Part shown: one piece after another, positions 14,776 through 61,168 of the stretch
Layout: each line of letters begins with the position of its first letter
How positions within the stretch are numbered: the first letter of the stretch is position 1
Origin: Chitinophagaceae bacterium
GTDB lineage: Bacteria > Bacteroidota > Bacteroidia > Chitinophagales > Chitinophagaceae
Length of the DNA: 64,000 nucleotides
NCBI GenBank assembly: GCA_023957155.1
Contig: JAMLHK010000014.1
Location: 44,351 to 108,350, forward strand
Direction: 5' to 3'
Program-made: the position numbers and the translations under genes
The notes under the pieces: generated by a model
What the model was told of the DNA's origin: nothing
The model's input: only the letters and a program-made list of their open reading frames with translations
Databases searched by the model: none

Positions 14776-15703
14776 TTTTCCCCGCCTTTATCATCCGGTC
14801 TTTCCCCTGCATATCTTTTTGAATGGTAGTATGTATAAATCCGTGGTGAATAAACACTTCTTTTACCGCTTCACCCATTGCTTCATGAATTTCCGTGTAG
14901 ATGTATCCATCCGGTTGTAGATGATGCATTGCGAAGGCCGCAATAGCCGAATAGAATACAAGGGGATCGCTGTCTTCTACAAATAAGGCAGTGTGAGGCT
15001 CAAAGCCGAGTACATTTTTGTGCATCTCTGCTTTGTCTTTTAAAGGAATATAGGGCGGATTGCTTACTATAATATCTAACAAAGGTAGAGTGTTGTGTTC
15101 CCCGGTGTGCAGGAAGTTCATCTGTAAAAACTGCACCGGGCATTCCAGGATAAGTGCATTCTTTTGAGCAACAGCGAGGGCTTTGTCACTGATATCTATG
15201 GCATATACCTCACTTTCGGGAATATTTTTTTTCAGGGCTATTGCAATGCAGCCGCTTCCCGTACCTATGTCTAATATAGCGGGTCCGCCTCCTGCACCCT
15301 GTACCCTGTACCCTGTACCCTGTGCCCTGTAACCTGTACCCTGTGCCCTGTAACCTGTAACCTGTAACTTGTAGTCTGCATCCTTTATGACCCATTCTGC
15401 CAGTTCTTCCGTTTCCGGCCGCGGGATCAGCACATTTTCGTCAACGTAAAACGGCATACCATAAAACCAGGCTTCACCCAATACGTATTGAACAGGGCGA
15501 TGTTGTAGCAATTGTGTAGCATAGCCGGTAAGTAAAGTATCTTGCTCTTCAGATAAGGGCTGATCTTTAATCAGCAGGCGGTCGGATCTTCCCAGCCCGG
15601 TGATTTTTTCCATTACCATAGCGGCAATATTTCCCGATTCGCGCTGATCATAAATATCCTGTAATCTGCCAGTGATAAAGCAGCGGGCTTCGTAAATGGT
15701 CAT
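14768..15703 (-). CDS. prmC: Peptide chain release factor N(5)-glutamine methyltransferase with translated heptamer repeat
   Basis: Methylates the GGQ glutamine of release factors RF1/RF2. From the ATG at 15703 (311 residues) an N-terminal helical domain (about 1-85, with RPVQYVLGEAWFYG) is followed by LIPRPETEELAEWVI, the SAM-binding motif ILDIGTGSGCIAIALK (about 143) and the catalytic motif SNPPYIPL (about 215). Between the two domains, residues about 112-138 are encoded by a perfect 7-bp tandem array and read as repeats of the heptapeptide LQVTGYR/AQGTGYR. The protein is about 25 residues longer than usual, which this linker accounts for. Convergent with exbD (8-bp overlap). A copy-number change not divisible by three heptamers would frameshift the catalytic domain. 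Confidence 0.93.
   Translation of the reverse strand: MTIYEARCFITGRLQDIYDQRESGNIAAMVMEKITGLGRSDRLLIKDQPLSEEQDTLLTGYATQLLQHRPVQYVLGEAWFYGMPFYVDENVLIPRPETEELAEWVIKDADYKLQVTGYRAQGTGYRAQGTGYRVQGAGGGPAILDIGTGSGCIAIALKKNIPESEVYAIDISDKALAVAQKNALILECPVQFLQMNFLHTGEHNTLPLLDIIVSNPPYIPLKDKAEMHKNVLGFEPHTALFVEDSDPLVFYSAIAAFAMHHLQPDGYIYTEIHEAMGEAVKEVFIHHGFIHTTIQKDMQGKDRMIKAGKIN
15291..15388. repeat. Heptamer array CCTGTAA/CCTGTAC inside prmC
   Basis: Eleven consecutive heptamers in exact phase from 15291 to 15367 (CCTGCAC, CCTGTAC x3, CCTGTGC, CCTGTAA, CCTGTAC, CCTGTGC, CCTGTAA x3), fading through CTTGTAG, TCTGCAT and CCTTTAT. On the coding (minus) strand the unit is TTACAGG or GTACAGG, which has no stop in any frame. 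Confidence 0.93.
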
Positions 15704-15812
15704 GGGCAAAGATAGTACGGATAAATTGCAGTAGATCTGTGTTGTTCGTTATAGCCTCTTTTTACTCAGGCACAAACCCTAAACCCGGCCAGGTTTCCGA
15801 AAAATAAAGGTA

Positions 15813-16409
15813 TTATTTCTCTTTTTTCAATTCCATATTCCTCACTACATATTTTCCCACCATATCAAATTCAATATTCACCGTATCTCCTTTATTCACC
15901 CGGTGCATATTGGTATGGGCATAGGTATAGGGGATAATGGCCACGGAAAAACTGTTTAACGTTACATCAAAAGCAGTGAGGCTGATGCCGTTTACACAGA
16001 TGGAACCTTTTTCTATGATCAGGGGAGCAAATTTTTCGGGAAAAAGAAAGCTGTACTTCCAGCTTCCGTCCAGCGATTCCTTTGCTGAACAGGTGGCTGT
16101 GGTATCTGCATGTCCCTGTACAATATGACCGTCTAAACGGCTGTTTAGCGTTACACATTGTTCCAGGTTGATTAAATCACCGGCTTTCCATTGTCCGGCG
16201 TTGGTTTTCTGTAATGTTTCCAGTATAGCCGTTACCTGGTAGGTTGTATCGTTAACCGCTTCAACCGTAAGACAGACGCCGTTATGGGCGATGCTTTGGT
16301 CTGTTTTAAATCCTGCACTCAGGGGAGAGCTAATCCGGAATTGCCTGTTTGTACCGTCAGGCTGTACCGAAACAACGTGACCAACCGATTCAATAATACC
16401 TGTGAACAT
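15813..16409 (-). CDS. ribE: Riboflavin synthase, alpha chain
   Basis: Dismutates two 6,7-dimethyl-8-ribityllumazines into riboflavin and the pyrimidine precursor. The 198-residue protein begins with the hallmark MFTGIIESVGHV and consists of two tandem lumazine-binding barrels; the second starts around residue 98 with GHIVQGHADTTA, repeating the first-domain pattern SIAHNGVCLTVE as SICVNGISLTAF. Length is typical. It is divergent from rpsU with about 107 bp between start codons. No FMN riboswitch-like leader is recognised. Confidence 0.95.
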   Translation of the reverse strand: MFTGIIESVGHVVSVQPDGTNRQFRISSPLSAGFKTDQSIAHNGVCLTVEAVNDTTYQVTAILETLQKTNAGQWKAGDLINLEQCVTLNSRLDGHIVQGHADTTATCSAKESLDGSWKYSFLFPEKFAPLIIEKGSICVNGISLTAFDVTLNSFSVAIIPYTYAHTNMHRVNKGDTVNIEFDMVGKYVVRNMELKKEK

Positions 16410-16449
16410 ACCTGCAAATTAGTACACCCTGCTGAAATTTTAAATTTGC

Positions 16450-16480
16450 TTTGGATTTTTGATTTCTTGTATTATCTTTG
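16450..16480 (+). promoter_or_regulatory. Consensus sigma-ABfr promoter of rpsU
   Basis: TTTG at 16450-16453 and TATCTTTG at 16473-16480, separated by exactly 19 bp, match the Bacteroidota TTTG-N19-TAnnTTTG consensus. This is the best promoter in the window and lies 36 bp before the rpsU ATG, in keeping with high expression of a ribosomal protein. Confidence 0.85.
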
Positions 16481-16497
16481 CGCTCCTAAAAAGCGAC

Positions 16498-16506
16498 AAA
16501 GGAGGT
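16498..16506 (+). promoter_or_regulatory. Strong Shine-Dalgarno before rpsU
   Basis: AAAGGAGGT ends 10 bp before the ATG at 16517, a full anti-SD complement. Genes around it show nothing comparable. In Bacteroidota, bS21 together with bS18 and bS6 masks the 16S rRNA tail, and an SD on rpsU is known from Flavobacterium to allow autogenous control by ribosomes lacking bS21. Confidence 0.85.
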
Positions 16507-16516
16507 AAATTACAAT

Positions 16517-16717: not shown

Positions 16718-16769
16718 ACCGGTCTTTTTTAAATAATATTGGTCAGGTAGCCGTAGAGTATATAACTTT

Positions 16770-18167: not shown

Positions 18168-18168
18168 A

Positions 18169-18709: not shown

Positions 18710-18723
18710 GATGATGGGGTGCA

Positions 18724-18758
18724 ATTTTCAAATTAACTCATTTTCAAATTTTCAAATT
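18724..18758. repeat. Heptamer array ATTTTCA, inverted relative to 18634
   Basis: Heptamers ATTTTCA, AATTAAC, TCATTTT, CAAATTT, TCAAATT in phase, ending 5 bp before tRNA-Gly. They are the reverse-complement type of the array at 18634. Confidence 0.6.
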
Positions 18759-18911: not shown

Positions 18912-18973
18912 ATCGTTGCAGTTCAGTGGCAGCGCATCCCGCTGTTAGGCGGGAAGGTTGAGAGTTCTTTTAA
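18912..18973 (+). pseudogene. tRNA-Thr-like 5' fragment, copy 1, with boxA-like tail
   Basis: Diverged copy of the 5' 56 nt of the tRNA-Thr (GGU) gene at 19123: acceptor 5' strand, D-arm and anticodon arm are recognisable, but the T-loop breaks at GAGTTC and runs into TTTTAATG, making AGTTCTTTTAA. The anticodon arm is TCCCG/CGGGA-like with an enlarged loop CTGTTAGG. No matching 3' acceptor strand follows. Confidence 0.75.
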
Positions 18974-19016
18974 TGCGAAGTGAGAAGTGAAAGTGGCTCT
19001 CACATTGGCTATACAT

Positions 19017-19079
19017 GCCGTTGTAGCTCAGTGGTAGAGCATCCCGCTGTTAAGCGGGAAGATCGTGAGTTCTTTTTAA
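19017..19079 (+). pseudogene. tRNA-Thr-like 5' fragment, copy 2, with boxA-like tail
   Basis: Identical to the tRNA-Thr (GGU) gene 106 bp downstream through the acceptor 5' strand and D-arm, then a different anticodon arm (TCCCG, 8-nt loop CTGTTAAG, CGGGA), and near-identical again up to GTGAGTTC, where it switches to TTTTTAATG. The 50-bp spacer after it, containing a GTGAGA/TCTCAC hairpin, is repeated after copy 1 (105-bp period). The 3' half of a tRNA is absent. Confidence 0.8.
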
Positions 19080-19122
19080 TGCGAAGTGAGAAGTGAAAGT
19101 GGCTCTCACATTGGCTATACAT

Positions 19123-19194
<72 letters not shown>

Positions 19195-19330
19195 CAAAAA
19201 TGTTAACAATGAATACTCCCTGACCGGGGTATATAAAAATAGTGTAAAGCAAACCAGTTTGCACCCTGTAATAATAATGTTTGCGGGATGCAGCTACAAT
19301 TTTAAACCGCAACTTTAAAACAGATAACAG

Positions 19331-29101: not shown

Positions 29102-29122
29102 AGACGGGAGTGCTGAAAAGCT

Positions 29123-29278
29123 AAATGACAAATCACAAATAAAATCTGAAAGGGCGATCAGTAATCTCAAATTTCAAATGCGGAAGGGGCTGTAAGCGAT
29201 CAGCGGTGAGCAGCAATCAGAAATCAACAAATCAGAAATCAGTATTTATATCCTTTTCTCCTTTTCATATTTCCACAT
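29123..29278. repeat. Heptamer arrays upstream of the nitronate monooxygenase gene
   Basis: Several heptamer types in succession fill the gap between two genes: AAATGAC, AAATCAC, AAATAAA; then from 29163 AATCTCA, AATTTCA, AATGCGG, AAGGGGC; then GATCAGC, GGTGAGC, AGCAATC, AGAAATC; and a pyrimidine-rich block TTTTCTC, CTTTTCA, TATTTCC just before the next ATG. Confidence 0.8.
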
Positions 29279-43009: not shown

Positions 43010-43112
43010 TGTGGATGGTTGTTTAAGTAAATGGAGGAAATGAATTGAATGTATGAATATCTGTAAAAGTTTGGGTTTCACTCAAACGCTATGGGGAATA
43101 TTTTATTATTGG

Positions 43113-44150
43113 TCAGCTTCCGAATGATTTGCCGATCAGGATAAAGCTATGCTGTAAACCTTTGTAATTGTTATATATCATTATATTCTTTGCTGCAGCC
43201 CCGGTGTAGCCTGATTGAAACAGGTGTGCAGGAAGGCTGCTGCCGCAGGCCAGCCAGGTGGCAATAGCTGAAGAGGTAGGGAACTCTCCCGACAAATGCT
43301 TATAGCGTACTACAGCAGTAGTGTTGTTGAAAATCCTTGTCACTTCAGTATAGTATGGTAAAAGCCTGATATCCCCGTTTTCTCCTGATATAAGAAGGTC
43401 TATATCCCCGGTATGGAGTGCGTTTTTGTGCAGCATCTCCCTTAACATCTCCTTCAGTACTGCATGGTCGGTAGTATGTATGGTTTGAATATCCCGTATT
43501 TGAGCTATGGCGTTTTTACGGTTACTGCTCACTAAAAACATGGCTGCTCCTTCGCCGGCGATGCTGCCCGGGCTACCGGTATCGTATAGACTGAGACCCG
43601 GGTGTAGTTCGCTTTTATACCATCCGTCAAGATAATCAATATTGTAGTTGTAAGCAGATATTTCGTCCACCGTCCCAACGAGGTAGCTGGCTTCCGGGTT
43701 GGTCTTCAGCATCATGAAAGCATCCAGCAGGGCATTTTCAAATGAAAGTCCTCTGTGCACATGCGTGATATTATAGCCTTTATTGGTAGCCATCAGTCCT
43801 ATTTGTGCAGCTATGGCGTTGGGAGTGCTCTGAACAAAATTGCCCGGGGTAAGCATTCCTTCTTCATAGTCAATGATCTGGTTAAGAAATTTGATGCAGT
43901 CTTCCATGCCGCCGTTTGCTGTTCCTATAATAATGCCGTTAATGTTCCGATAGTTTTCAATGATCGGTAATCCTGCTCCCGCACCCATACGAACCGCTTT
44001 ACCCATGCGGCGGAGTATGCCCGGCGGTATACCTTTATACACAGGTTCTTTTGCCACCAGCTTGTTACCAACAGGGGGATGGATTATATCAAGATTTATA
44101 TTTTCAAAAGTCTCTTGTGCGGAGATGCAGGTGTGCTGATGAATATACAT
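43113..44150 (-). CDS. Ketosynthase-like protein without active-site cysteine (KS-beta/chain-length-factor-like)
   Basis: 345 residues from the ATG at 44150 (MYIHQHTCISAQETF). The thiolase fold is recognisable from GIIIGTANGGMEDC, FVQSTPNAIAAQIGLMATNKG, GTVDEISAYN and GEGAAMFLVS. Where ketosynthases have the nucleophile in TACSS, this protein reads THVHRGLSFENALLDAF, so no cysteine is present. It is therefore probably a non-elongating partner of the neighbouring FabF-type synthase. It is the last recognisable gene of the minus-strand aryl-polyene/dialkylresorcinol-like cluster. Confidence 0.75.
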   Translation of the reverse strand: MYIHQHTCISAQETFENINLDIIHPPVGNKLVAKEPVYKGIPPGILRRMGKAVRMGAGAGLPIIENYRNINGIIIGTANGGMEDCIKFLNQIIDYEEGMLTPGNFVQSTPNAIAAQIGLMATNKGYNITHVHRGLSFENALLDAFMMLKTNPEASYLVGTVDEISAYNYNIDYLDGWYKSELHPGLSLYDTGSPGSIAGEGAAMFLVSSNRKNAIAQIRDIQTIHTTDHAVLKEMLREMLHKNALHTGDIDLLISGENGDIRLLPYYTEVTRIFNNTTAVVRYKHLSGEFPTSSAIATWLACGSSLPAHLFQSGYTGAAAKNIMIYNNYKGLQHSFILIGKSFGS

Positions 44151-44202
44151 GACTGCAAATTTCAGGAACCCGATCCCAAAAACCAATTAAAATACCGGTT
44201 TC

Positions 44203-44352
44203 GCGCAAAGCGCGCAACGGAGCAAAGACGCAACGTAAGAGGGTTAGAGGTGAAAGGTGTAGGGTGGAAGGTGGGTTTAGGTTTCAGGGTACAAGGGCCT
44301 CGATCATTGTTCCCTACATTTTCAAATTTTCACACTTTCACACTTTCAAATT
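44203..44352. repeat. Heptamer arrays between the two ketosynthase genes
   Basis: Fourteen heptamers in unbroken phase from 44203 to 44300: GCGCAAA, GCGCGCA, ACGGAGC, AAAGACG, CAACGTA, AGAGGGT, TAGAGGT, GAAAGGT, GTAGGGT, GGAAGGT, GGGTTTA, GGTTTCA, GGGTACA, AGGGCCT. A second block (ATTTTCA, AATTTTC, ACACTTT, CACACTT, TCAAATT) at 44318-44352 provides the TGA stop codon of the FabF-like gene. Confidence 0.9.
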
Positions 44353-45536
44353 AATCTTGAAAAGATCAGCGAACTGCAGTTGCCTCCGAAACCAAATGAG
44401 TTGGACATTACGTGCTGTAATGAAGCCGGCCGGTATTCCTGTACGGGAGTCAGCAGCGTGGTTTCAATAGGGGTTTTAAATTGCAGCGAAGGGTATATTT
44501 CCTGGTGATAGAGATTCAGGATGCTGAATACGGCCTCAATAGCGCCTGCAGCCCCGAGCGTGTGACCGGTATTTGCCTTGGAAGATACAAAGGGTGGGGG
44601 AGCGCCAAACAATCGTATCATGGCGGTACTTTCGGAAAGATCGTTGTTTTCGGTTCCGGTGCCATGCGCATTGATGAAGCTGATCTGCAAAGGGGAAAGA
44701 TCCGCTGTTTCCAGTGCCCGTTGCATAGACAACTGTGGTCCGTCACCATTATCTGAAAGTGAGGAAGGGTGGTAAGCGTCATTGCTGTTGCCATAGCCGG
44801 ACAATATCGCATATACTGTTTTATCTTTCACCTCTTCTTCCCGTTCCAGCACCAGGAAGGCAGCGCCTTCGCCCAGGTTCAGACCTTTCCTGTCCTGGTC
44901 AAAAGGTGTACAGATTTCGGGAGAAAGGATATGGAGGGCATTAAACCCGTTGATCGTAAACTTTGCTAAGCTGTCTGCGCCGCCCACTATGGCTCTTTTG
45001 GCAAGTCCCTGTTGCAGGAGCCTCGCTCCGTACATGATAGCATTGGCAGAGGAGGAGCAGGCGGTATTAATGGTGTTAATAATACCCTTCATGCCGTATC
45101 GCTGCTGGAGATAGAGATTTACCGAGGCGCAGTCGTATGAAGACAAATACGGGGAGCCCTCTTCTTTTGTATTGGCATCGTGGTATAATTCGTCTGTAAG
45201 GCACATGCCGCCCACCGTGCTGGCACCGATAAGCGCCGTATCCGGCGAAGCGATATCGGATAGTTGGAGTTTTGCATTCCCGCAGGCTTCCTGAAAGGCA
45301 TGCAGGGCTAACAGGGAAGTGCGGGTAACACCCGGTTCGGTTGCCTGTAATTTTTCTTTAAGTGAGGGTATGGTGTGTTTTATTTCCCCGCAGGGCCGCA
45401 GGCCACTATACCGGGTATCGCAAAACTGAAGGGAGGAGATACCGCTTACTCCCTGTATGAGCATTTCCCGGTTTTGGTTTACATTATCCCCTATAGCACT
45501 TATAATTCCTAATCCTGTGATAACGACCCTGCTCAA
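44346..45536 (-). CDS. Beta-ketoacyl-ACP synthase (FabF-type)
   Basis: Elongating ketosynthase of 396 residues. The catalytic triad is intact: Cys160 in NTACSSSANA, His in NAHGTGTENND and His in KANTGHTLGAAGA. It differs from primary FabF by its partners: an ACP 10 bp upstream, a Cys-less ketosynthase-like gene downstream and an ABC exporter. This set is typical of aryl polyene/flexirubin clusters. The C-terminus abuts a heptamer array that contributes the stop codon. Confidence 0.88.
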   Translation of the reverse strand: MSRVVITGLGIISAIGDNVNQNREMLIQGVSGISSLQFCDTRYSGLRPCGEIKHTIPSLKEKLQATEPGVTRTSLLALHAFQEACGNAKLQLSDIASPDTALIGASTVGGMCLTDELYHDANTKEEGSPYLSSYDCASVNLYLQQRYGMKGIINTINTACSSSANAIMYGARLLQQGLAKRAIVGGADSLAKFTINGFNALHILSPEICTPFDQDRKGLNLGEGAAFLVLEREEEVKDKTVYAILSGYGNSNDAYHPSSLSDNGDGPQLSMQRALETADLSPLQISFINAHGTGTENNDLSESTAMIRLFGAPPPFVSSKANTGHTLGAAGAIEAVFSILNLYHQEIYPSLQFKTPIETTLLTPVQEYRPASLQHVMSNSFGFGGNCSSLIFSRLI

Positions 45537-45546
45537 CAGTAAAAAT

Positions 45547-45810
45547 TTATTTTGTTTTGTGTGCTATAATATAATCTGCCATGGTATTGATGTCTACCAG
45601 CACTTTTCTGCCTTCTTTGGGATCCTGTATAGTAACACCGTATTCGCGGGAAAGCAAAACGATCAGCTCAATGGAATCTATGGAGTCAAGACCAAGTCCT
45701 TCGCCAAATAAGGGCTCATCGTCTTTGATATCACCGGGTTGTATGGAGGTAAGGTTTAAAAACTGTACGATTTGTTGTTTTAGCTGTTGCTTCAGTTGTT
45801 CTTTTTCCAT
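45547..45810 (-). CDS. Acyl carrier protein
   Basis: 87-residue carrier protein. The phosphopantetheine serine is Ser43 in GLGLDSIDSIELIVLL (DSI variant of DSL). N-terminal helix MEKEQLKQQLKQQIVQFLN is charged. It sits between the ketosynthase and ABC permease genes with 10-11 bp gaps, so it serves this cluster rather than general fatty acid synthesis. Confidence 0.92.
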   Translation of the reverse strand: MEKEQLKQQLKQQIVQFLNLTSIQPGDIKDDEPLFGEGLGLDSIDSIELIVLLSREYGVTIQDPKEGRKVLVDINTMADYIIAHKTK

Positions 45811-45821
45811 TAGTTAAATTT

Positions 45822-47102
45822 TCAGATCAGGCGTTTATGTCTTAGCCCGTAAAACGCAATTATCTGCAATAATAATGTAATAGCCAGTAAAGGTATAATA
45901 TTCATAACAATATCCTGGAGTTTACCTCCTTCTAAAAACAGCCCGTAATACGCCTCAAGGCACCAGTGTAGCGGGGATAGCCGCATAATAAGCTGGAAGG
46001 ATGGGGGCATTACAAAGGAAGGTACCAATAGTCCGCCAATAGCTGCGAGCAATACAACGGATACGGCTCCAAAACCGTTTGCCTGCTCCTGTGTATTGGA
46101 AAAAACACCAATGCAAATGGCGAAGCTGGCGGCACACCAGCCGCAAATGAACGTTACCAGTGATAAGGCGGCAATGTCAGATGGCAGGTTCAGTGCAGGT
46201 AATCCCATTTGCGGGAACAGCCAGATGCCTATAGAAAAAATAACGGTTGCCTGCAGGATCGTTACGGCCACATAAGTGATTTGTTTTGAAATAATGGCTA
46301 ATCCAAAATGCGTAGGTAAAGTACGCAGCCTGATAATGCTGCCATTTAATTTTTCCCTTACCACACTGCTGCCCAGTGAAATAACAATGAAAAACATAGC
46401 AAAGATCGTCCAGGCAGGAATATTATGTTGTGTGGCATTGGGAATTTGCCGGGTGTTGTTTTTAAAAACCGGCACTTCTGCCACGGGCGTCTGATTGGTA
46501 ACGATCTGGTTTTCTAAAGCAAGGGGAATATCTTCTTCGTTTACCGCATGGTACACATCTTTTACAATATATTTGGTTTGAATAAACTGTAAGCTGCTGC
46601 GCAGCATGCCGTCAATGCTTTTACGGAAAGATTGCTGCAATACGGGATGATAATACACCTGTACAGGAGTGGCTTCATGCGGGGTTTGCTCTATGGAGTC
46701 TTGCGGTAATTCGATATTCTTTAAGGCTTCCGATGTAATATGTTTTGCCTTCTTTAAAACGTCTTCCGAATAGTTGTCCGGGATAACAATAGCTACTAAC
46801 GCATCTTTAGTATTAATACGATCTTTAAGCGTTTCTTCATTGGGTGTACCTGTTGCCTTTTTTATATCAAACATACCCACTTCGGAAAGCGCTGCTTCCA
46901 GTTCTTTTGCCGGTTCGTGCGTATCCCGGTTCAATAGCAGAACAGGTATTTTGTTTTCATTTACCAGTTCAAAAGTGCTGTTTTGTACTGAGGCAATTAC
47001 AATAGCCAGTATAACGGGCATTACAAACATGAGCGTAAGTCCCATTTTATCCCGGGTTAAAATTCTACAATCTTTTACTATGGTTGACCAGAGTTTGAAC
47101 AA
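45822..47102 (-). CDS. ABC-2 type exporter permease
   Basis: Permease of 426 residues. One N-terminal helix (GLTLMFVMPVILAIVIASV, about 21-39), a large extracytoplasmic domain (about 40-225), then five or six helices in the C-terminal half, the ABC-2 layout. The only available start for the full N-terminus is TTG at 47102; the next Met is residue 20. The TTG is at the edge of a heptamer array, which may have replaced the original start region. Partner ATPase is encoded upstream. Likely exports a polyene/lipid product, by context only. Confidence 0.85.
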   Translation of the reverse strand: MFKLWSTIVKDCRILTRDKMGLTLMFVMPVILAIVIASVQNSTFELVNENKIPVLLLNRDTHEPAKELEAALSEVGMFDIKKATGTPNEETLKDRINTKDALVAIVIPDNYSEDVLKKAKHITSEALKNIELPQDSIEQTPHEATPVQVYYHPVLQQSFRKSIDGMLRSSLQFIQTKYIVKDVYHAVNEEDIPLALENQIVTNQTPVAEVPVFKNNTRQIPNATQHNIPAWTIFAMFFIVISLGSSVVREKLNGSIIRLRTLPTHFGLAIISKQITYVAVTILQATVIFSIGIWLFPQMGLPALNLPSDIAALSLVTFICGWCAASFAICIGVFSNTQEQANGFGAVSVVLLAAIGGLLVPSFVMPPSFQLIMRLSPLHWCLEAYYGLFLEGGKLQDIVMNIIPLLAITLLLQIIAFYGLRHKRLI

Positions 47103-47105
47103 GGA

Positions 47106-47147
47106 GATTTGAAATTTGAGATTAGAGATTTGAAATTTTAGATTTCA
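47106..47147. repeat. Heptamer array GATTTGA
   Basis: Six heptamers in exact phase: GATTTGA, AATTTGA, GATTAGA, GATTTGA, AATTTTA, GATTTCA. It starts 4 bp beyond the TTG start of the permease gene. Confidence 0.9.
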
Positions 47148-47273
47148 GGCCTTACTGTCCTGCAGGAGAGGGTCTGAGAGCATAAGGTTTATAAATTTTG
47201 CGAATCAATTTTATGTTTCATCATTGATAATTAATGTATTTCTTTTTTATTGATATGGATTTTATAATCACCA

Positions 47274-47322
47274 AATTTCAAATATCCAGCCTCAAATCCC
47301 TAATCCCTGTATTCCCTTCCCG
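47274..47322. repeat. Heptamer array AATCCCT over the 3' end of the ABC ATPase gene
   Basis: AATTTCA, AATATCC, AGCCTCA, AATCCCT, AATCCCT, GTATTCC, CTTCCCG in phase. On the minus strand it encodes the last residues (REYRD) and the TAG stop of the ATPase. Confidence 0.82.
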
Positions 47323-48043
47323 TAAGAGCCAGGAACAATCCTTCCAGTCCTTCCTGCTGGTGTTCTTTTAATAACCCGCTTAATGTATTATTGGCAATGA
47401 TCTTTCCTTCATCTATCAGGGCGATCTTATTACAAAGATCCTCCGCTTCTTTCAGCTGATGCGAGGTATAGACCAGCGTAGTACCTTTTTCGTTCAGTGC
47501 TTTCAGGTAGTGAATAATGGCATGCCGTGTTTGTACGTCCACACCCACCGTAGGCTCGTCAAGAAACAGTATCCGGGGTTCGTGCATAACCGCGATAGCC
47601 AGGTTTACCCGGCGTTTCATACCGCCTGAAAATTTATTTACCGGTTTATTGCGTACCTCCTGTAGCGACATAATGTTTAACAGATCATCTGTCCTTTGCT
47701 GTATTTGTTTTTTGCCCAGTCCGGCCCAGGCTCCAAAGAACTCCATATTTTCTACCGGGCTCAGCTCGTGATAAAAAGAAAAATCCTGCGGTACAAAGCC
47801 GAATAAGGTATTACTGAGCTTCTTATTTTTTCGTACTTCATGTCCCAGCAATTGAACAGAGCCATCGGTGTAGGGGAGCAGCCCCGTCATCAGGTTCATC
47901 AGGGTGGTTTTACCGGCGCCATTAGGACCGAAGATCCCGAACCGGTTGCCCTGCTCTACCTGCAGATTAACCCTGCTGATGACTTTTTGGGTATTGCCCT
48001 TGTAGCCAAAGCTCAGGTTTTCTATATGGATAGCGGAAGACAT
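47300..48043 (-). CDS. ABC transporter ATP-binding protein
   Basis: ATPase of 247 residues. The ATG at 48043 (MSSAIHIENLSFGYKG) is the start; the frame continues 50 codons upstream only because the heptamer array has no stop in this orientation. Walker A is GPNGAGKTTLMN, the signature is KFSGGMKRRVNLAIA, Walker B ILFLDEPTVGVD, and the H-loop TSHQLKEAEDL. It pairs with the ABC-2 permease downstream (198 bp gap filled by repeats). Confidence 0.93.
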   Translation of the reverse strand: MSSAIHIENLSFGYKGNTQKVISRVNLQVEQGNRFGIFGPNGAGKTTLMNLMTGLLPYTDGSVQLLGHEVRKNKKLSNTLFGFVPQDFSFYHELSPVENMEFFGAWAGLGKKQIQQRTDDLLNIMSLQEVRNKPVNKFSGGMKRRVNLAIAVMHEPRILFLDEPTVGVDVQTRHAIIHYLKALNEKGTTLVYTSHQLKEAEDLCNKIALIDEGKIIANNTLSGLLKEHQQEGLEGLFLALTGREYRD

Positions 48044-48046
48044 GGT

Positions 48047-48214
48047 TAGGTATGAGGTATAGGGTGTGGGGTGTAAGGTGTGAGGTATAAGATGTGAGGT
48101 GTAAGGTGTGAGGTGTAAGGTATAAGGTATAAGGTAGAGGGTGTAAGATATGGGGTGAAGCCTGTTGTGTACCCTGCAACCTGCGACCTGCAACTTGTAC
48201 CCTGTACCCTGTCC
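48047..48214. repeat. Longest heptamer array: 24 units, AAGGTGT then CCTGCAA
   Basis: 168 bp in unbroken 7-bp phase. Sixteen units of the NAGGTNT type (TAGGTAT, GAGGTAT, AGGGTGT, GGGGTGT, AAGGTGT and so on) pass through two transitional units into six of the CCTGNAN type (CCTGCAA, CCTGCGA, CCTGCAA, CTTGTAC, CCTGTAC, CCTGTCC). It begins 3 bp from the ABC ATPase start codon and fills almost the entire intergenic gap. Confidence 0.95.
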
Positions 48215-48239
48215 CTTCCTGTATTATTCCTTATCTCCA

Positions 48240-49259
48240 TTAACGTAATCTTTTTACTATGGTACCCAGTTCGCGGAATGCTTCTTTTTCGAGTGCGGCT
48301 ATTGCCAAAAGCTGATCGCCCATTACATTATAATCCTGCTGTTCCGTAAGCCGGCCTTTATATATGCCGGAGGCCTGTATGGCGGCATCTCTCCACAGGT
48401 CGCCGGCCCGGGTAAACTTTTGGGATACATCCATCAGCTCATCAACGGGGTGATATGCATAAGCCTGCTGTAAAAAAGCGGCATAAATAAAGCGGAACCC
48501 GCCACCACCGGTACCAATTTCTTCCTGCATCCGTACCAATTGTGCCAGGTAGCTCCGTGATTTGTCTAATCCCAGCGTATCACGCCATTTTTTTATCTTT
48601 TTTGCAGTATACCGTATGCCACTGATACCGGCAATATTACCGGGCACATATAGCATGTGGCGTACGTTTCTTTTAATGCCGGTAACGATCGCACGTTTTA
48701 TTTGCTCATCCGTTACTTCCCGTGCTTCTTTCGGGTAATACAATTGTCCGTGCGGGGCAAGCGGTCCCCGGGCAAACCTCACCCGCTCCAGTTCATAGCT
48801 GGTCATGGTAGCGAAGGTTTCCATAATGGGATCGCTGATCAGGTAGTTGTCGCCCTCTTTTCCTACCACAATTAAATTATGTGCGTTAAAATGAAAACGG
48901 TATTCTTTGGGGAAGTAAGGAAGATAGAATACGCCTACCTGGCAGGCAGCGGGATGGCCGGACAGCAGCCTGTTATCTAATGCCTGCCGGGCTTTTTCTT
49001 TAGATAAAAATTTTTGCCGCAGGATAGAGATGTTCAGCGACCGGCAGGTCCGTTTAAAGATCAGTCCTGGCATGGTGCGAAAGGAAATGGCAGGCCCGTC
49101 ATTCACTTTCATGAAGGGGATATAGATAAAGAATAAACCCGAGCCGATACCAAAAGCCAGCGGTTCTGTTATCTGATGTACCCCGTAATGCTGCAGCAGG
49201 CTTGCTGTTACCCCGTTTTCGCAATGCGCTGCCTGCAGGTGCTTATACTCCGCTTTCAT
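48240..49259 (-). CDS. BtrH N-terminal-like (C39-peptidase-like) protein
   Basis: 339-residue cytoplasmic protein. The N-terminal HCENGVTASLLQHYGVHQ with Cys near residue 13 and later FNAHNLIVVGKEGDNYLISDP resemble the BtrH N-terminal domain, a cysteine-peptidase-like acyltransferase fold (Cys-His-Asp). The C-terminal half is helical and matches DUF4872-like sequence as I recall. In butirosin synthesis BtrH moves an acyl group from ACP, so an ACP-to-acceptor transfer in this cluster is a reasonable inference. Its start overlaps the previous gene by 17 bp. Confidence 0.75.
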   Translation of the reverse strand: MKAEYKHLQAAHCENGVTASLLQHYGVHQITEPLAFGIGSGLFFIYIPFMKVNDGPAISFRTMPGLIFKRTCRSLNISILRQKFLSKEKARQALDNRLLSGHPAACQVGVFYLPYFPKEYRFHFNAHNLIVVGKEGDNYLISDPIMETFATMTSYELERVRFARGPLAPHGQLYYPKEAREVTDEQIKRAIVTGIKRNVRHMLYVPGNIAGISGIRYTAKKIKKWRDTLGLDKSRSYLAQLVRMQEEIGTGGGGFRFIYAAFLQQAYAYHPVDELMDVSQKFTRAGDLWRDAAIQASGIYKGRLTEQQDYNVMGDQLLAIAALEKEAFRELGTIVKRLR

Positions 49260-49656
49260 GCCAGTGCCTGTTTTTTAAATCCTCAACGGTTACATCAAAT
49301 GCGGTAGCGTATCGCTGTAATTTTTGATCAGATAATTTTTCAAAAATACGGGGCTTTAAATGACGTTTTACCTGCCACTTCCAAAACCCGGTATAGGCTG
49401 ACAGGATATCTATATTCATCAATTTTAATTCCATAAAATATAACAGCGGGCTTGCTTCATTATTCAATACTTTTTGCCTGGCATCGGCCACTTTTTTTTC
49501 AATGTCATTCCAGGCAACGTCTAATGCTTTTATCTTTACTTCCCATCCGGTACTCAGTTCCGTTACATATTTTCCGTCCTTATCAACGGCATACGAAACC
49601 TCTTTCGTGAAATTTTGCAAAGCGCCGGGATCCTGTGGGATGTCTTCTTGTTTCAT
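49243..49656 (-). CDS. Cluster-associated protein of unknown function
   Basis: 137 residues from the ATG at 49656. Mostly helical and soluble; central block VKIKALDVAWNDIEKKVADA and a C-terminal segment SDQKLQRYATAFDVTVEDL. No signal peptide or membrane segment and no domain I recognise. It overlaps the BtrH-like start by 17 bp, so the two are translationally coupled. A heptamer array begins 14 bp upstream of its start. Confidence 0.7.
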   Translation of the reverse strand: MKQEDIPQDPGALQNFTKEVSYAVDKDGKYVTELSTGWEVKIKALDVAWNDIEKKVADARQKVLNNEASPLLYFMELKLMNIDILSAYTGFWKWQVKRHLKPRIFEKLSDQKLQRYATAFDVTVEDLKNRHWHESGV

Positions 49657-49669
49657 TGAATAATTGTTT

Positions 49670-49843
49670 GAGGTGGTCAAGTTCCAGGTCACAAGTCTCA
49701 GGTTTCAGGGGTTCTTCGGAACAGCTCTTTTCTTTCACTCGCTACCTTGTAACATGCGACCTGCACCCTGTAATCTGCACCCTGTTCGCGGTCTGACGCT
49801 CCTTCGTCGCGTACCGACCGCTCCATTTTCACATTTCCACATT
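49670..49843. repeat. Composite heptamer arrays between darB and the 49243 gene
   Basis: First block 49670-49711: GAGGTGG, TCAAGTT, CCAGGTC, ACAAGTC, TCAGGTT, TCAGGGG. A UUCG-type hairpin GTTC-TTCG-GAAC follows at 49711-49722. Second block 49746-49843, fourteen units in phase: CTTGTAA, CATGCGA, CCTGCAC, CCTGTAA, TCTGCAC, CCTGTTC, GCGGTCT, GACGCTC, CTTCGTC, GCGTACC, GACCGCT, CCATTTT, CACATTT, CCACATT. Confidence 0.9.
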
Positions 49844-49846
49844 ACA

Positions 49847-51004
49847 TCAGCATACCGTCAGTAAGCCATACATATAGGAAAACCGGGAGCTTTCTGGAAC
49901 CAGCAAAAGAATTTTATTTCCCTTTTGAAGTTTGCCGCTATGGAATAATTCATCAATCATCATATATACCGATGCAGCGCCTACATTACCTACTGTGCTT
50001 AAGTTAACGAACCATTTTTCATAGGGGATGCCAATGCCGTTGTATTCCAGCCGTTCATATATTTTGCTCTTGAAGAAATTGCTGGACATGTGCGGTAAAA
50101 AATAATCTATATCGGCAGGCGTCAGCCCTTTTTGTTCAAACAAAGCTTTCAGTTTAATACCGCCTAAGGGGACAATGTACTCGCTCAGCAGCTTTACATC
50201 CTGCTTGATGCTCATGACCGACTGTTCATTTATTTCATCCGGCGTATATTCCAGGAATCCTTTCAGGGTTCCGTCTTCCATCTTTTCACTACCCATGTAC
50301 ATACAGGCTTCCATTTCCTGCGCATAGGAAACACCTTCCAGCCATTCAATGCGGAGTGTTAAGCCGGTATCGTTTTTTTTGTTGGATAACAGGAATGCGG
50401 ATGCGCCATCCGATAACATCCATCTTAAAAATTCTTTTTCAAACCCGATATAAGGGTTTTCTTCCAGCTCGATCAGCTTCTGCACTTCGTCTTCAAACTG
50501 GTTGGAACGTAATGGCGCCGACATTCTTTCCGACCCGGTAGCTACGGCAGTGGAAATTTCCCCTGTTTTGATAGCCATATAGGCATACTTGAGCGCATGC
50601 ATACCGGCACAGCAAACGCCCGAAGGGGAAACCACTTCTATAGCGCCGCTTTCCGGCAGCCACCCATGTACCATTACCCCGTGTGAGGGCATGATCTGGT
50701 CGGGTGATGAAGTACCGCAGGACAGGAGCTGAACGGATTTTATTTCCTCCGGGTGATCTTTGAACAGCTCTTTTACCGACAAAGCTGTCATTTGCGCATT
50801 GGTATGCGTAATTTTTCCGCCTTTTTCCAAAGCATAATACCGGTTAACAATGCCGTTGTTGCGTAGTACGATCCGTTTTGATTTGGATGGCTTGTTATTG
50901 ATATAGCCCAGGTATTCCTCCATCTCTTCATTAGAAACGGGATCATTGGGGAAAAAGCTGGCTGTTCTTGTTATATAAACTTCGTTCAATTCCATTTGCT
51001 TCAT
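49847..51004 (-). CDS. darB: Ketoacyl synthase III-type dialkylresorcinol enzyme DarB
   Basis: 385 residues from the ATG at 51004 (a second ATG at 50995 is possible). Thiolase-fold KAS III with catalytic Cys in SGVCCAGMHALKYA, His in FLPHMSSNFF and Asn in LSTVGNVGAAS. The N-terminus VYITRTASFFPNDPVSNEEMEEY and GYINNKPSKSKRIVLRNNGI are typical of DarB, which joins two beta-oxoacyl chains to a cyclic dialkylresorcinol precursor with DarA. Gene order darA-darB supports this over a housekeeping FabH. Confidence 0.85.
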   Translation of the reverse strand: MKQMELNEVYITRTASFFPNDPVSNEEMEEYLGYINNKPSKSKRIVLRNNGIVNRYYALEKGGKITHTNAQMTALSVKELFKDHPEEIKSVQLLSCGTSSPDQIMPSHGVMVHGWLPESGAIEVVSPSGVCCAGMHALKYAYMAIKTGEISTAVATGSERMSAPLRSNQFEDEVQKLIELEENPYIGFEKEFLRWMLSDGASAFLLSNKKNDTGLTLRIEWLEGVSYAQEMEACMYMGSEKMEDGTLKGFLEYTPDEINEQSVMSIKQDVKLLSEYIVPLGGIKLKALFEQKGLTPADIDYFLPHMSSNFFKSKIYERLEYNGIGIPYEKWFVNLSTVGNVGAASVYMMIDELFHSGKLQKGNKILLLVPESSRFSYMYGLLTVC

Positions 51005-51066
51005 GTATAGAAGGTTCAAAAATAGAATATTATCAGATACAATGAAACAGGCAGTCCGTTGCCTGT

Positions 51067-51978
51067 TCACTGCTTCAGTGACACACCGGCATAATATTCT
51101 TTTTGTTGTTTTATACGCCTGCCCAAAAAGGGTTTAAAAAATAAGGCGTCTACTAATAAAATAACAGGGGCCGCTACACAAAGGGCAATTAAAAGATAAT
51201 ATTTGAATGCAACAAGTAAGGTGCGTCTTTTTTTGCTGCCGTTGATCAATTTAGACCATATTAAAAATATACGTCCTGCTTTTCGCTCAATGAACATCAG
51301 GTTGTATTTTATATTCACGGCACCCTGGCGGAGCAGGTTTTCCTGCAGGCTATTCCATTCGTTTTTCTGCAGGTGATCCTTTACGGTTTCCCCAAACAAA
51401 GCGCTGCCGGCAATGTCTTCGTCCGATACGCCGGGTTTGGGAAAGATACCCCATTTCCGGTCTTTCCTGCCGGTAAGCATCCAGTATAAAATGGTTACAA
51501 GACTGGCATAGTTATTATGACGATCTACCAGTGCAATATTACCTATGAGGTTTGCATTGGCATTTTTCAGCATCTTTTTTACTTTTTCCTGTGCATTGAT
51601 CCACATGTTCCTGCACCCGCTGATGGTGATCACCGGTGTGTTTTTACTGATTTCTTTAAAAGACGGGTGCTGTAATAATGAGCTGGCAGGAATACTCGGT
51701 GATAAAAACCAGGGCTGGTATCCGATAATGATCAGATCGTAATGTGATTCTTTAAAGGTAAAGGCCTGTAACTCCACCGGAGTACTGTTCACACTTTCGG
51801 GCATCGCATCAAAAAATGCAGGCGATGTCCATGGAAAAGGAAAGGAGTGTATGGGATAAATACGCAGTTTTTCCACTGAAATATCCGGCGAAGATTCTAA
51901 CGGAAGGGTAAAATGGCTGATGATACTTTCCATTTGACCGGTTTGGGTGAAATAAACGGCTAAAACTTTTTTGCTCAT
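51067..51978 (-). CDS. darA: Dialkylresorcinol-condensing protein DarA
   Basis: 303 residues. The N-terminus has a flavodoxin-like fold (KVLAVYFTQTGQMESIISHF, a loop for phosphate binding) and HYDLIIIGYQPWFLSPSIPA; near the C-terminus a hydrophobic stretch (about 262-285) probably anchors it in the membrane. DarA acts with DarB to build the dialkylresorcinol head group; in flexirubins this is esterified with an aryl polyene. Identification rests on recalled family features plus adjacency to darB. Confidence 0.8.
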   Translation of the reverse strand: MSKKVLAVYFTQTGQMESIISHFTLPLESSPDISVEKLRIYPIHSFPFPWTSPAFFDAMPESVNSTPVELQAFTFKESHYDLIIIGYQPWFLSPSIPASSLLQHPSFKEISKNTPVITISGCRNMWINAQEKVKKMLKNANANLIGNIALVDRHNNYASLVTILYWMLTGRKDRKWGIFPKPGVSDEDIAGSALFGETVKDHLQKNEWNSLQENLLRQGAVNIKYNLMFIERKAGRIFLIWSKLINGSKKRRTLLVAFKYYLLIALCVAAPVILLVDALFFKPFLGRRIKQQKEYYAGVSLKQ

Positions 51979-51990
51979 ACTTACCAGGGG

Positions 51991-52503
51991 TTAGAAATCT
52001 TGGGGTGACAGAACTTTTGATAACCTGCTGTAATCAACAATAGCGGTTTGCAGGCTTGCCGGAACGGAATTGAAATGTTCGACGAGGTATTGATGATCTT
52101 CTTCCAGTTGCTTGTCATATCCCAACATTTTGGGAGATTTTTCCTGTATCATCAGCCGGAGAAACCTGAATTCCACATTTTCCGTATGTCGTGCGATCAT
52201 GCTATCTAATTTTTCTCTCCCCGCTTTAAATTCTTTCAGCTTATGAGGGGCGCCTTTCAGCAGTCCTGCTTTTTTCATCATCAATGCACCTTCAAAAGCG
52301 TCTTTTTCATCAGACGGGCTTTGGCTTAGGATATCTAACTGCTTTTGAATGGCATTGATATTATCACTGGAAAAAGCAGCATAATAAGCCTTACGGTTAA
52401 AATGAGCCTTACTGCTTTGGGCGGACAATAGTTCTACTGTTAACAATAATCCTATTATTGTAAATAACAGCGGTACCGATGTGGTTTTCTTTGCGATAAA
52501 CAT
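51991..52503 (-). CDS. Exported helical protein of unknown function
   Basis: 170 residues with a signal peptide cut near LLSAQSS. The mature part is helical, with EGALMMKKAGLL and FRFLRLMIQEKSPKMLGYDK, and resembles small exported proteins found beside flexirubin genes. No domain recognised. It is the first gene of the minus-strand cluster, with a TAnnTTTG element 8 bp upstream. Confidence 0.7.
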   Translation of the reverse strand: MFIAKKTTSVPLLFTIIGLLLTVELLSAQSSKAHFNRKAYYAAFSSDNINAIQKQLDILSQSPSDEKDAFEGALMMKKAGLLKGAPHKLKEFKAGREKLDSMIARHTENVEFRFLRLMIQEKSPKMLGYDKQLEEDHQYLVEHFNSVPASLQTAIVDYSRLSKVLSPQDF

Positions 52504-58816: not shown

Positions 58817-58978
58817 ATTCCGGGGATATTATAAAGGTGTACAAATGATATCTGTCATGTAGACTGGACCCGGTGATTTACAGTTATATTCAGGCTAACA
58901 GTATATAAAATTCCCGTTCAAAATATAGGGGATGTTTCATTTCGTGGATAATGTAATGCGCATTCATGCGCTTAATTG

Positions 58979-59785: not shown

Positions 59786-59792
59786 TTTGTGA

Positions 59793-59855
59793 TTGCTTTA
59801 TTATAATGTCCAGTGCGTCTATACGGTCAAAATGCTTTTTATTCAAAAGTGTCAA
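59793..59855 (-). pseudogene. Possible 3' remnant of a PIN-domain toxin
   Basis: Seven bases after the antitoxin-like stop, the minus strand reads LNKKHFDRIDALDIIIKQ, which resembles the C-terminal end of PIN-domain (VapC-type) toxins (NxKHFxRIxxLxI). The other ~100 residues expected of a PIN toxin are absent. The match is short and from memory. Confidence 0.4.
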
Positions 59856-59861
59856 CCAAAA

Positions 59862-60089
59862 CTATTTTGTCCGCCATTGATTGATAGCTTTTCTGGTTTT
59901 AGCAACTTCGTCAAGTTGTTTTTTAGAAAAAGTAGGGGCGTTCAGGAGAAAACATTCAAGTTCACTAACAGATCTGTCAGTAGCATGTTGTTTATCAACC
60001 TCCTGTTTAAGTTTAGCCCACTGGTTACCGGGCAGTTTCTTAGCCAACTGTACCAACTGATCAAATCCTATGTCTACCTGTAATTGCAT
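59862..60089 (-). CDS. Small antitoxin-like protein
   Basis: 75-residue helical protein starting MQLQVDIGFDQLVQLAKKLP with NQWAKLKQEVDKQ and ending TFSKKQLDEVAKTRKAINQW. It resembles small antitoxin-like proteins that precede PIN-domain toxins in Bacteroidota and Cyanobacteria. No intact toxin follows; a short toxin-like remnant starts 7 bp after the stop. It would be an orphan if so. Confidence 0.6.
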   Translation of the reverse strand: MQLQVDIGFDQLVQLAKKLPGNQWAKLKQEVDKQHATDRSVSELECFLLNAPTFSKKQLDEVAKTRKAINQWRTK

Positions 60090-60187
60090 ATCAGAGTAAA
60101 ATTAGGAAAATTTATTAAAAGGTAAGTAGACTGAAAGGCAATTGATCCGAAAGGGTTTGTATTTCCACTTTTTAAATTTATCCTGCT

Positions 60188-60257
60188 GTGGTCTGACCTT
60201 CCTTGCGTCAGGTGCCGACCCCATCTTACTCACATTTTTACATTTCCCCATTTTCAA
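60188..60257. repeat. Composite heptamer array upstream of thyA
   Basis: Ten units in phase: GTGGTCT, GACCTTC, CTTGCGT, CAGGTGC, CGACCCC, ATCTTAC, TCACATT, TTTACAT, TTCCCCA, TTTTCAA. The succession parallels the units at 49788-49843 (GCGGTCT, GACGCTC, CTTCGTC, GCGTACC, GACCGCT, CCATTTT, CACATTT), so the two loci share a composite order and not just a period. Confidence 0.82.
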
Positions 60258-60270
60258 ATAACTTGCACCC

Positions 60271-61083
60271 ATGCAACAATACCTGCAGTTACTTCAGCAT
60301 ATTATGGATACCGGCGTGCAAAAGCACGACCGTACGGGTACAGGCACCATCAGTTGTTTCGGTTACCAGGCCCGGTTTGATCTGAGGAAAGGATTTCCGC
60401 TGGTGACCACTAAAAAGCTGCACCTTAAAAGTATTATATACGAGCTGCTCTGGTTTTTAAAGGGGGACACCAATATTAAGTATCTTACAGAGCATAATGT
60501 AAGCATCTGGAATGAGTGGGCCGACAGCAACGGCGAATTAGGACCGGTATATGGCAAGCAATGGCGCAGTTGGGAAGGAGCTAACGGGGAAACCATTGAC
60601 CAGATCACGGAAGTGATTGAGCAGATCAGGAAAAATCCGGACAGCCGCCGGCTTATTGTGAGCGCCTGGAATGTAGCTGATCTTCCCAGGATGGCGCTGA
60701 TGCCCTGTCATAATATGTTCCAGTTTTATGTGGCGGAGCCGAAAGACGGGGGAAAACCTGCTCTTTCCTGTCAGTTGTATCAGCGGTCTGCCGATGTATT
60801 TTTGGGCGTTCCCTTTAATATCGCTTCCTATGCGCTGCTTACACTCATGATTGCGCAGGTTTGTGATCTCGATGCGGGAGAATTTATCCATACATTCGGC
60901 GATGTGCATTTGTACAATAACCATATTGAGCAGGCAAAGCTGCAATTATCACGTACTCCTTATCCTTTGCCCAAAATGAAGCTGAACCCGGATATCAGGA
61001 ATATTTTTGACTTTACATACGAAGATTTTATACTCGAAAATTACCAGCACCATCCGGCCATAAAGGCGCCGGTAGCGGTGTAG
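60271..61083 (+). CDS. thyA: Thymidylate synthase
   Basis: Methylates dUMP to dTMP with methylene-THF, producing DHF. The 270-residue protein starts [20 protein letters not shown] and contains the dUMP/folate motifs [38 protein letters not shown], the catalytic Cys in [31 protein letters not shown] and [10 protein letters not shown]. It sits 131 bp before folA, whose product regenerates THF from the DHF made here. The start follows a heptamer array directly. Confidence 0.97.
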
Positions 61084-61084
61084 C

Positions 61085-61168
61085 GTTGGGAAGTTTGTAG
61101 TTTATAGTTGGGAAGTTGCAGGTTTCAGGATGCGGGGCATCTGTTCATGGCTAATGGTTCACAGCTCT
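61085..61168. repeat. Heptamer array AGTTTGT/TTCATGG between thyA and folA
   Basis: Units in phase from 61085: GTTGGGA, AGTTTGT, AGTTTAT, AGTTGGG, AAGTTGC, AGGTTTC, AGGATGC, GGGGCAT, CTGTTCA, TGGCTAA, TGGTTCA, CAGCTCT. It starts 2 bp after the thyA stop. Confidence 0.85.

Follow-up and report, generated by a model that had tools for sequence, protein, structure and literature searches.

Degenerate heptamer arrays at gene edges in a Chitinophagaceae genome and its relatives

Why should the spaces between the genes of one bacterium carry short tandem arrays that keep a period of seven bases while their sequence differs from place to place? The question is raised by a stretch of 64,000 nucleotides from a Chitinophagaceae bacterium (assembly GCA_023957155.1, contig JAMLHK010000014.1, positions 44,351 to 108,350), here called the window, in which a sequence-only reading had recognized a dispersed family of such arrays and proposed a mechanism that counts seven. 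Heptanucleotide short tandem repeats (STRR) occur in heterocystous cyanobacteria. The window was compared with the rest of its own genome (G000), with the same-genus set of 12 genomes to which it belongs (G000-G011) and with genomes outside the genus. The period-7 arrays are genuine, far above shuffled controls and mainly intergenic, and they are widespread and changeable in evolution; the idea of a mechanism that strictly counts seven is not supported.

The window contains 144 start positions of 42-bp stretches with at least 30 lag-7 identities, and the same cut-off gives zero starts at lags 4-6 and 8-12. A 448-kb sample of the own genome (contig 6 entire and 340 kb of contig 1, the window included) yielded 12 lag-7 segments of score 12 or more, compared with 0 in one local-dinucleotide shuffle. 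At the same score, lags 8 and 15 gave 4 segments each, the multiples of seven gave 9 (lag 14) and 7 (lag 21), and the remaining lags within 3-20 gave 0 to 2 each. The check put forward with the sequence-only reading, a lag-7 excess over lags 5-9 and over shuffles, is thus borne out in the sampled parts of the own genome; when the sample is extended to 648 kb of 4.61 Mb, the heptamer excess holds both over chance and over neighbouring unit lengths. In those 648 kb an open reading frame (ORF) caller placed 27 of the 33 arrays of lags 7 and 8 in intergenic DNA, the coding fraction by the same caller being 85-88%.

At single loci the sequence-only reading fared unevenly. Its count of at least ten array loci stands at a laxer score (at least 10, mismatch -1), which finds ten lag-7 segments in the window (shuffle mean 4.7 per 448 kb), but only six, at 15291, 29116, 44242, 47104, 48048 and 61092, reach a score of 12. 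The array of 11 units at 15291 is confirmed: TRF gives 10.9 copies for 15291-15366, and within 15291-15364 the first four positions of the unit (CCTG) are constant in 11/11 units, the variation being confined to positions 5-7. TRF also gives 13.3 copies for 48055-48147, within the other long array stretch of the window, 48048-48216. The differing cores at different loci (CCTGYRM, AGGTRTR, GARATTT and GGTGNRN) were likewise recovered. Neither array of 14 units survives at that length, the 98-bp stretch from 44203 having 52% lag-7 identity with about seven units recognisable near 44243 (score 16), and that from 49746 having 43% with about six CCTG-like units visible by eye, below score 10. The supposed change of core without loss of phase at 48160 turns out to be a place where two opposed arrays meet, AGGTRTR and CCTGYRM, which have AGG/CCT in common in inverted orientation; over 48150-48172 lag-7 identity is confined to 8 of 23 positions, and the scorer had bridged both sides into one segment all the same. 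Nor is the period strict, since the laxer score finds five lag-8 segments in the window, and three of these (29246, 44318 and 49824) share gaps with lag-7 segments.

The cores behave as families of restricted distribution. A pattern built on CCTGYRM occurs 27 times (overlaps included) in the own genome, is present in 10 of the 11 same-genus relatives, and is found in none of 46 genomes outside the genus; read backwards, it has no match in any genome scanned (own genus and the 46 outside). For a second core, ATTTGAR, the own genome gives 8 matches and genus members as many as 103; G008 and G011 give none, and five genomes from outside the genus give between 1 and 11. The dominant core varies among species of the genus. 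No lag-7 array of score 14 was present in 80-kb samples of G025, G029 and G033, and a sample of G015 gave 5. A 100-kb sample of the same-genus G008 contained six lag-8 arrays and zero lag-7 arrays.

Orthologous junctions were then read across the genus. Between the ABC transporter ATPase and BtrH genes (11 species, gene ends estimated by protein alignment) the gap is short in four, with 14 bp in G008, 20 in G004, 34 in G010 and 38 in G009. Five of the seven longer gaps hold heptamer arrays with differing cores. In G000 (197 bp), G003 (234 bp) and G007 (265 bp) the left side bears AGGT arrays and the right side ACCT arrays; in G002 (162 bp) and G005 (231 bp) the cores are of GTTTGTA, ATTTGAG and GCTGATA types. 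The other two, of 157 bp in G001 and of 769 bp with unrelated sequence in G006, are without a clear array. At the permease-ATPase junction the left edge bears GATTTGA-like units in G000, G007 and G009, and GCTATCA/GCTATGA units in G006 and G004, which have 8-bp units on the right. At these junctions, then, the place is kept and the core changes, and within the genus the two edges need not match.

One array of the window lies within a gene, in the linker between the two domains of a prmC-like protein. The prmC proteins of many relatives align to it as two pieces, to about residue 112 and again from about residue 144, which indicates that the insert is absent there. Of 30 prmC loci tried, 28 had readable linkers; in 21 of these the linker measures 93-114 bp, too short to contain this array, compared with 177 bp in the own genome, and in G003, G007, G010, G001, G015 and G024 it measures 132-201 bp. 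The array occupies 63 bp in G007, 84 in G000 and 105 in G003, that is 9, 12 and 15 heptamers, in exact 21-bp steps, which points to whole-unit change under a reading-frame constraint. These lengths, with those of the junctions above, support the gain and loss of whole heptamers that the sequence-only reading proposed to look for, the comparison being one of species and not of strains. In G024, from another genus of the family, the prmC linker contains GGTTACA-like and TGTAACC-like units in opposed orientation, and in G027, from another genus, a linker of ordinary length contains AAAATCG heptamers (both by eye). The one-directional prmC array gave a fold z of -3.1 against shuffles.

The richest genome sampled was G020, from another genus of the family, of which 480 kb were analysed. 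It gave 153 segments at lag 7, 55 at lag 8 and 10 at lag 9. Such period-8 arrays, in relatives and in the same gaps as heptamers, together with the period 9 seen here, argue against a strict counter of seven, as does the G008 sample with its lag-8 arrays. Of the 233 G020 arrays 217 are intergenic, and arrays occupy 135 of 318 gaps longer than 40 bp (42%), 79 of them holding at least two. Lag-7 arrays are most often 4-5 units long (136/177), the score cut-off removing most shorter ones. At stop edges arrays begin a median 3 bp past the stop codon, and in some cases the array overlaps the stop codon and provides it; the corresponding median for start edges is 36 bp. The outer arrays of the 79 gaps give an inverted match of 21.9 within a gap, compared with 8.7 between gaps and 5.1 in direct orientation; periods are equal in 76 of the 79, the spacer has a median of 61 bp, and the two arms have an identical consensus unit in 38 gaps where 5.4 are expected. 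Matches (overlapping) to one 21-bp arm pattern number 682, 290 and 245 in three genomes of the G020 genus, whereas the one 82-bp loop examined matches once in each of three genomes, at half length in G059.

G020 was compared with two sister species (TypA proteins 99-100% and GatB proteins 95-98% identical) at 24 orthologous gaps, read by eye. One species has a different element from another in 8 of these (21508, 24090, 29696, 31360, 32167, 36290, 329641 and 333897), and at 24090 both arms change between closely related cores. In three gaps (24090, 33894 and 28334; boundaries by eye) the loop or a segment of it is inverted, inverted and forward alignment scores being 27:1, 23:2, 24:-8 and 24:-12. 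The array-free gaps 25789, 34369 and 322501 are constant in length within six bases. As a separate observation, G020 and its sisters (L331-L334 and the G020 sample) also have period-9 inverted elements of GTCATGATT / ACGCAGATG types, and these and other long hairpins replace heptamer elements at the same gaps.

The arrays are oriented as well as placed. Orientation was scored at the nearer gap edge for skewed intergenic arrays, those within coding sequence or at the end of a stretch being left aside. The G-richer strand reads outward from the gene in 22 of 26 arrays of the own genome, 85 of 113 in the genus stretches and 165 of 200 in G020, an excess over the array-free background with one-sided p of 0.005, 0.002 and 7e-8, respectively. 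Arrays of the own genome sit at both start and stop edges. Stop trinucleotides are enriched on the outward strands, with 0.112-0.126 per base against 0.062-0.063 in G020 and a smaller excess in the own genus (0.074-0.075 against 0.050-0.057). Stop codons as the cause of the orientation were considered and rejected, since the excess at start edges is no smaller than that at stop edges and the GGTTRCA core lacks stop trinucleotides altogether.

Public genomes scanned for (CCTGYAM)3CCTG gave at least 115 stretches, of which 80 matches were listed. By their titles, the matches listed include Bacteroidota, Chloroflexota, Acidobacteriota, Cyanobacteria, candidate phyla and others. The 80 listed loci (587 kb, selected for the array) gave 144 segments at lag 7 and at most 19 at each of lags 3-6 and 8-13. 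Among the matches listed, the core reads outward as GGTTRCA in many phyla, and the G-richer strand is outward in 46 of 66 oriented arrays, a raw count with no background subtracted. Opposed pairs, G-rich left and C-rich right, were seen by eye, among the same matches, for example in Neolewinella agarilytica, Niastella yeongjuensis and a Yanofskybacteria metagenome-assembled genome.

Much of this has precedent, and heptanucleotide excess, length variation, some opposed pairs, repeat-supplied stops and repeat-free relatives at the same place are already described. An excess of heptanucleotide repeats in bacteria was ascribed by Mrazek in 2007, as quoted in PMC4679880 and PMC4692102, to a slippage preference, and this too tells against a mechanism that counts seven. 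Those long repeats resemble the present arrays in the 7-bp unit and its strong excess over other unit lengths, and differ from them in that ours have degenerate units, several cores per genome, an admixture of 8-bp units, and placement and orientation by gene edges. The TAACTGA repeats of Beggiatoaceae, Cyanobacteria and some Bacteroidetes (MacGregor 2015, PMC4679880) are also intergenic heptamers with stops in all frames, some in coding sequence; in some of the Bacteroidetes, gaps hold other heptamers too, and the gaps of close relatives are shorter and repeat-free. There, however, one fixed heptamer is set just upstream of start codons, related heptamers being rare in the main genome, whereas here there are many cores, those of the window differ from TAACTGA, and arrays stand at start and stop edges. 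An 8-bp class in G020 (TAACTGAA) includes TAACTGA. The GGGAATC / GGGGAYT repeats of Xanthomonas and Nostoc (Rehm 2015, PMC4692102) are alike in their heterogeneous heptamers with conserved positions, their length and sequence variation between close species and some opposed pairs, but have a G-tract, quadruplex-forming unit and, in the genomes treated, one core family each. The BrickBuilt miniature inverted-repeat transposable element (MITE) of Porphyromonas gingivalis (PMC4596501) is likewise intergenic, built of tandem repeats and found in Bacteroidota, but has a 23-bp unit, a fixed leader and tail, and inverted ends. Rickettsia palindromic elements (reviewed in PMC10969869) also place in-frame repeat DNA in conserved protein genes, as here in prmC; they are about 150 bp long and form defined families, whereas the prmC insert is a one-directional 84-bp heptamer array. 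A search of one open-access library found no description of exchangeable-core arrays whose place and orientation follow gene edges, none of joint replacement of arms, no paper on the same arrays in Chitinophaga and none for the STRR name.

The reading we favour, with a probability of roughly 0.55, is that the arrays are a variant of the repetitive intergenic DNA already known, supplied by slippage biased in its unit length and spread or homogenised by some process. The building block would be a degenerate array whose unit is 7 bp long, or less often 8 or 9 bp, and is present mostly in 4 to about 24 copies, set at the edges of intergenic gaps by stop or start codons with its G-richer strand outward; where a gap has two arrays, these may be the arms of an inverted repeat round a locus-specific loop. 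Whole units are gained and lost, as the exact 21-bp steps in prmC show, and whole arrays are gained, lost or swapped for another core, as the comparison of single junctions shows; in the related genus both arms differ jointly between sisters, and some loops are inverted. Slippage preferring 7-9-bp steps would alter array length, recombination or templated repair through inverted arms, or a mobiliser, would spread core families between loci and keep the arms alike, and arrays would survive only in unconstrained DNA such as gap edges and a protein linker. A host function is not required to explain the observations.

Several results weigh against this reading. Chief among them is that inverted pairing is not significant in the own genus (28 gaps; the observed mean is attained in 14 of 200 permutations), so that the link between the window and G020 rests on shared period, place and orientation and on overlapping cores; this is the main weakness in extending the G020 picture to the window. 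Four window gaps gave fold z-scores of -2.1, -1.9, -1.2 and +0.9 against shuffles. The orientation rule is partly background, since the G-richer strand reads outward at 59-65% of array-free gap edges too. An arm in G020 resembles its partner (0.891) about as closely as it does arms of the same family elsewhere (0.888; 35/53), so repair from the partner is not singled out over the spread of family sequences. At gap 24090 the two cores are one transition per unit apart, and point changes could also suffice. Scripted comparison of whole loops between sisters gave 1 of 8 inverted, 6 of 8 forward and one tie, which makes inversion a minority, and gaps 38356 and 334871, without detected arrays, changed length as well. 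Among G020 loops longer than 25 bp, 19 of 71 BLAST-match another loop at E of 0.01 or less, several via array-like pieces. No enzyme and no directly observed movement was found, no candidate gene for a templated writer having been searched for.

A bolder form of the favoured reading, which we think less likely than not, is that the arrays belong to a little-described class of self-spreading intergenic inverted repeats, present in several phyla, with stems of period 7, 8 or 9 exchangeable on both arms at once and an invertible loop of local DNA, some activity driving the exchange, perhaps unleashed where the hairpin nuclease SbcCD is lacking. Within the genus, full-length SbcD (TIGR00619) scores over its cut-off in G006, G008 and G011 only, and the two array patterns jointly have 17, 1 and 1 (overlapping) matches there; the nine genus genomes without it have 35, 1, 110, 75, 32, 111, 83, 30 and 58. 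Contrary to such a brake, G001 (510 contigs) lacks full-length SbcD and yet has 1 match, and G025 and G033 also lack it although their samples are without lag-7 arrays. With these exceptions, the fragmentation of G011 (800 contigs) and the rarity of full-length SbcD among 194 genomes of the family, of which 25 exceed the cut-off, SbcCD as a brake on the arrays is a lead only. Since bacterial intergenic repeats are mostly recognised by their sequence, consensus searches would easily overlook a class that is marked by its period, place and orientation. If arms are replaced jointly and loops invert between close species, intergenic DNA in these bacteria would be rewritten much faster than the adjacent genes, and conserved genes, prmC among them, could acquire arrays in 21-bp steps. 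The system may offer a natural test case for why bacterial repeats favour seven-base units and for what restrains inverted repeats.

Would plain heptanucleotide simple sequence repeats do, formed by 7-bp slippage from local chance seeds, decaying by point mutation and never moving between loci? The dominance of lag 7 and the whole-unit steps in prmC fit, and G010, which has no array at the ATPase-BtrH junction, bears a seed-like TTAGGTATGGG at the same edge, though this could be a remnant. Local seeds do not account for the reuse of a few cores across loci and across species of the genus, for an arm pattern with hundreds of overlapping matches per genome in the G020 genus, or for G020 arms that share their unit far beyond expectation and differ together between sisters, and we consider this explanation unlikely.

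A reading that we think improbable is that the arrays are functional cis elements, binding sites or RNA hairpins at transcription ends or translation starts, under selection. Their location at edges and their orientation rule would suit it, as would units that are part conserved and part variable (CCTG in the prmC array; 19 transitions and 2 transversions relative to the consensus in the AGGTRTR array at 48048-48158), and a translational role was proposed by MacGregor for the TAACTGA repeats (PMC4679880). However, orthologous junctions of the same genus are without arrays or have other cores, sisters with TypA and GatB 95-100% identical also differ in arrays, and one array lies within prmC. 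The orientation persists in convergent gaps of G020, where there is no start codon (43/49), and some G020 gaps seem by eye to have a terminator within the loop, so that the arms need not be on one transcript. An RNA hairpin in the window gaps was considered separately and rejected on the weak fold z-scores given above.

Lower still we rate REPIN-like non-autonomous elements mobilised by a RAYT (REP-associated tyrosine transposase, Y1_Tnp). The paired arrays of G020 are like REPINs and REP doublets (PMC3116915, PMC3733652), these being extragenic inverted doublets with short spacers, often near stop codons and able to supply stops, as is also seen in G020; and of 58 genomes 45 have Y1_Tnp matches, among them all 12 of the genus. 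The stems here, unlike those of the REPINs in the papers cited, are tandem arrays of 7-9-bp units of exchangeable sequence, and the spacers are mostly locus-specific. A many-copy conserved repeat, a REPIN feature, is present in the G020 genus but absent from 400 kb of G003, where no 21-mer is present three times, unlike a REP family. The Y1_Tnp copy of G020 has internal stops and a weak domain match, and there is no other. At 30 Y1_Tnp loci, the best match in each of 30 genomes and not all matches, a lag-7 segment (score at least 13, within about 1.5 kb) was found at 6 (raw count), and arrays on both sides at one (L307). RAYT/Y1_Tnp as the mobiliser was thus rejected, the genome census and the 30 neighbourhoods giving no evident association. 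The spacer as part of a mobile unit was also rejected, loops being mostly locus-specific; given the 19 of 71 loops with a match to another loop and an 82-bp loop that is single in each genome, it is unlikely that the elements are classical MITEs, with an interior that is conserved.

An enzyme dedicated to the templated writing of fixed-length units, akin to a reverse transcriptase or working by terminal extension, would explain a near-fixed period with varying sequence and the recurrence of CCTGYAM, G-outward, in many phyla among the matches listed, but units of 8 and 9 bp exist, slippage with exchange accounts for the length steps, and we think it highly improbable.

The arrays of the window and the genes beside them are collected in Table 1.

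Table 1. Positions of arrays, adjoining genes and associated features in the window
Feature	Position	Strand	Remarks
prmC-like gene	14768..15709	-	PF17827 at residues 15-78, PF05175 at 144-221; array in inter-domain linker
CCTGYRM heptamer array (GGKTACA type on prmC sense strand)	15291..15373		inside prmC coding sequence
8-bp array AATTTTCA	18723..18758		in tRNA cluster; tandem-repeat and lag scoring
Mixed degenerate arrays	29116..29242		between nucleotidyltransferase-like and nitronate-monooxygenase-like genes; score 18
GGTGNRN left array, ~7 units	44243..44297		score 16
Right array, 8-bp units TTTTCACA/TTTTCAAA	44318..44350		same gap as GGTGNRN array at 44243
GARATTT left array, 6 units	47104..47145		edge of ABC-2 permease/ATPase gap
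Weak opposed partner (CAAATTTCAAATAT...CTCAAATCC)	47272..47308		other edge of ABC-2 permease/ATPase gap; score 10
ABC transporter ATPase gene	47300..48042	-	left of gap; start taken as ATG at 48042
AGGTRTR left array, ~16 units	48048..48158		adjoins ABC ATPase start codon
Short loop between opposed arrays	48159..48172		the supposed core switch; 8/23 lag-7 matches in 48150-48172
CCTGYRM right array, 6 units	48173..48216		adjoins BtrH_N/DUF4872 stop codon
BtrH_N/DUF4872 gene	48240..49259	-	right of gap; domain matches
Weak left array AGGTYNC	49678..49709		score 11
Right array, ~6 CCTG-like units	49746..49787		by eye; below score 10
Short array, 8-bp units ATTTTCAC	49824..49843		score 10
Degenerate heptamer array AGTTNNN	61092..61136		score 12

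Several of the window arrays lie inside a gene cluster at 42416-52503 comprising ketoacyl synthases, an acyl-carrier-like ORF, ABC transporter genes and the BtrH_N/DUF4872 protein, which we take to resemble the flexirubin/aryl-polyene type. One array gap of this cluster also contains, at 49786-49830, a GC-rich element (CGGTCTGACGC...GACCG) whose related copies number seven in 340 kb of contig 1, with one more in 200 kb of contig 20; several copies have a second inverted half, making it a dispersed palindromic repeat family of the own genome. At 18914-19125 there are truncated tRNA-like copies (the 5' part of a tRNA, then GCGAAGTGAGAAGTGAAAG...) with a 106-bp period, which directly precede an intact tRNA-Thr (19123-19195) and are uncalled by ARAGORN. 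Elsewhere in the own genome, contig 20 contains at about 167781-173620 (locus L269) a CRISPR-like array of 63 repeat copies, mostly about 77 bp apart.

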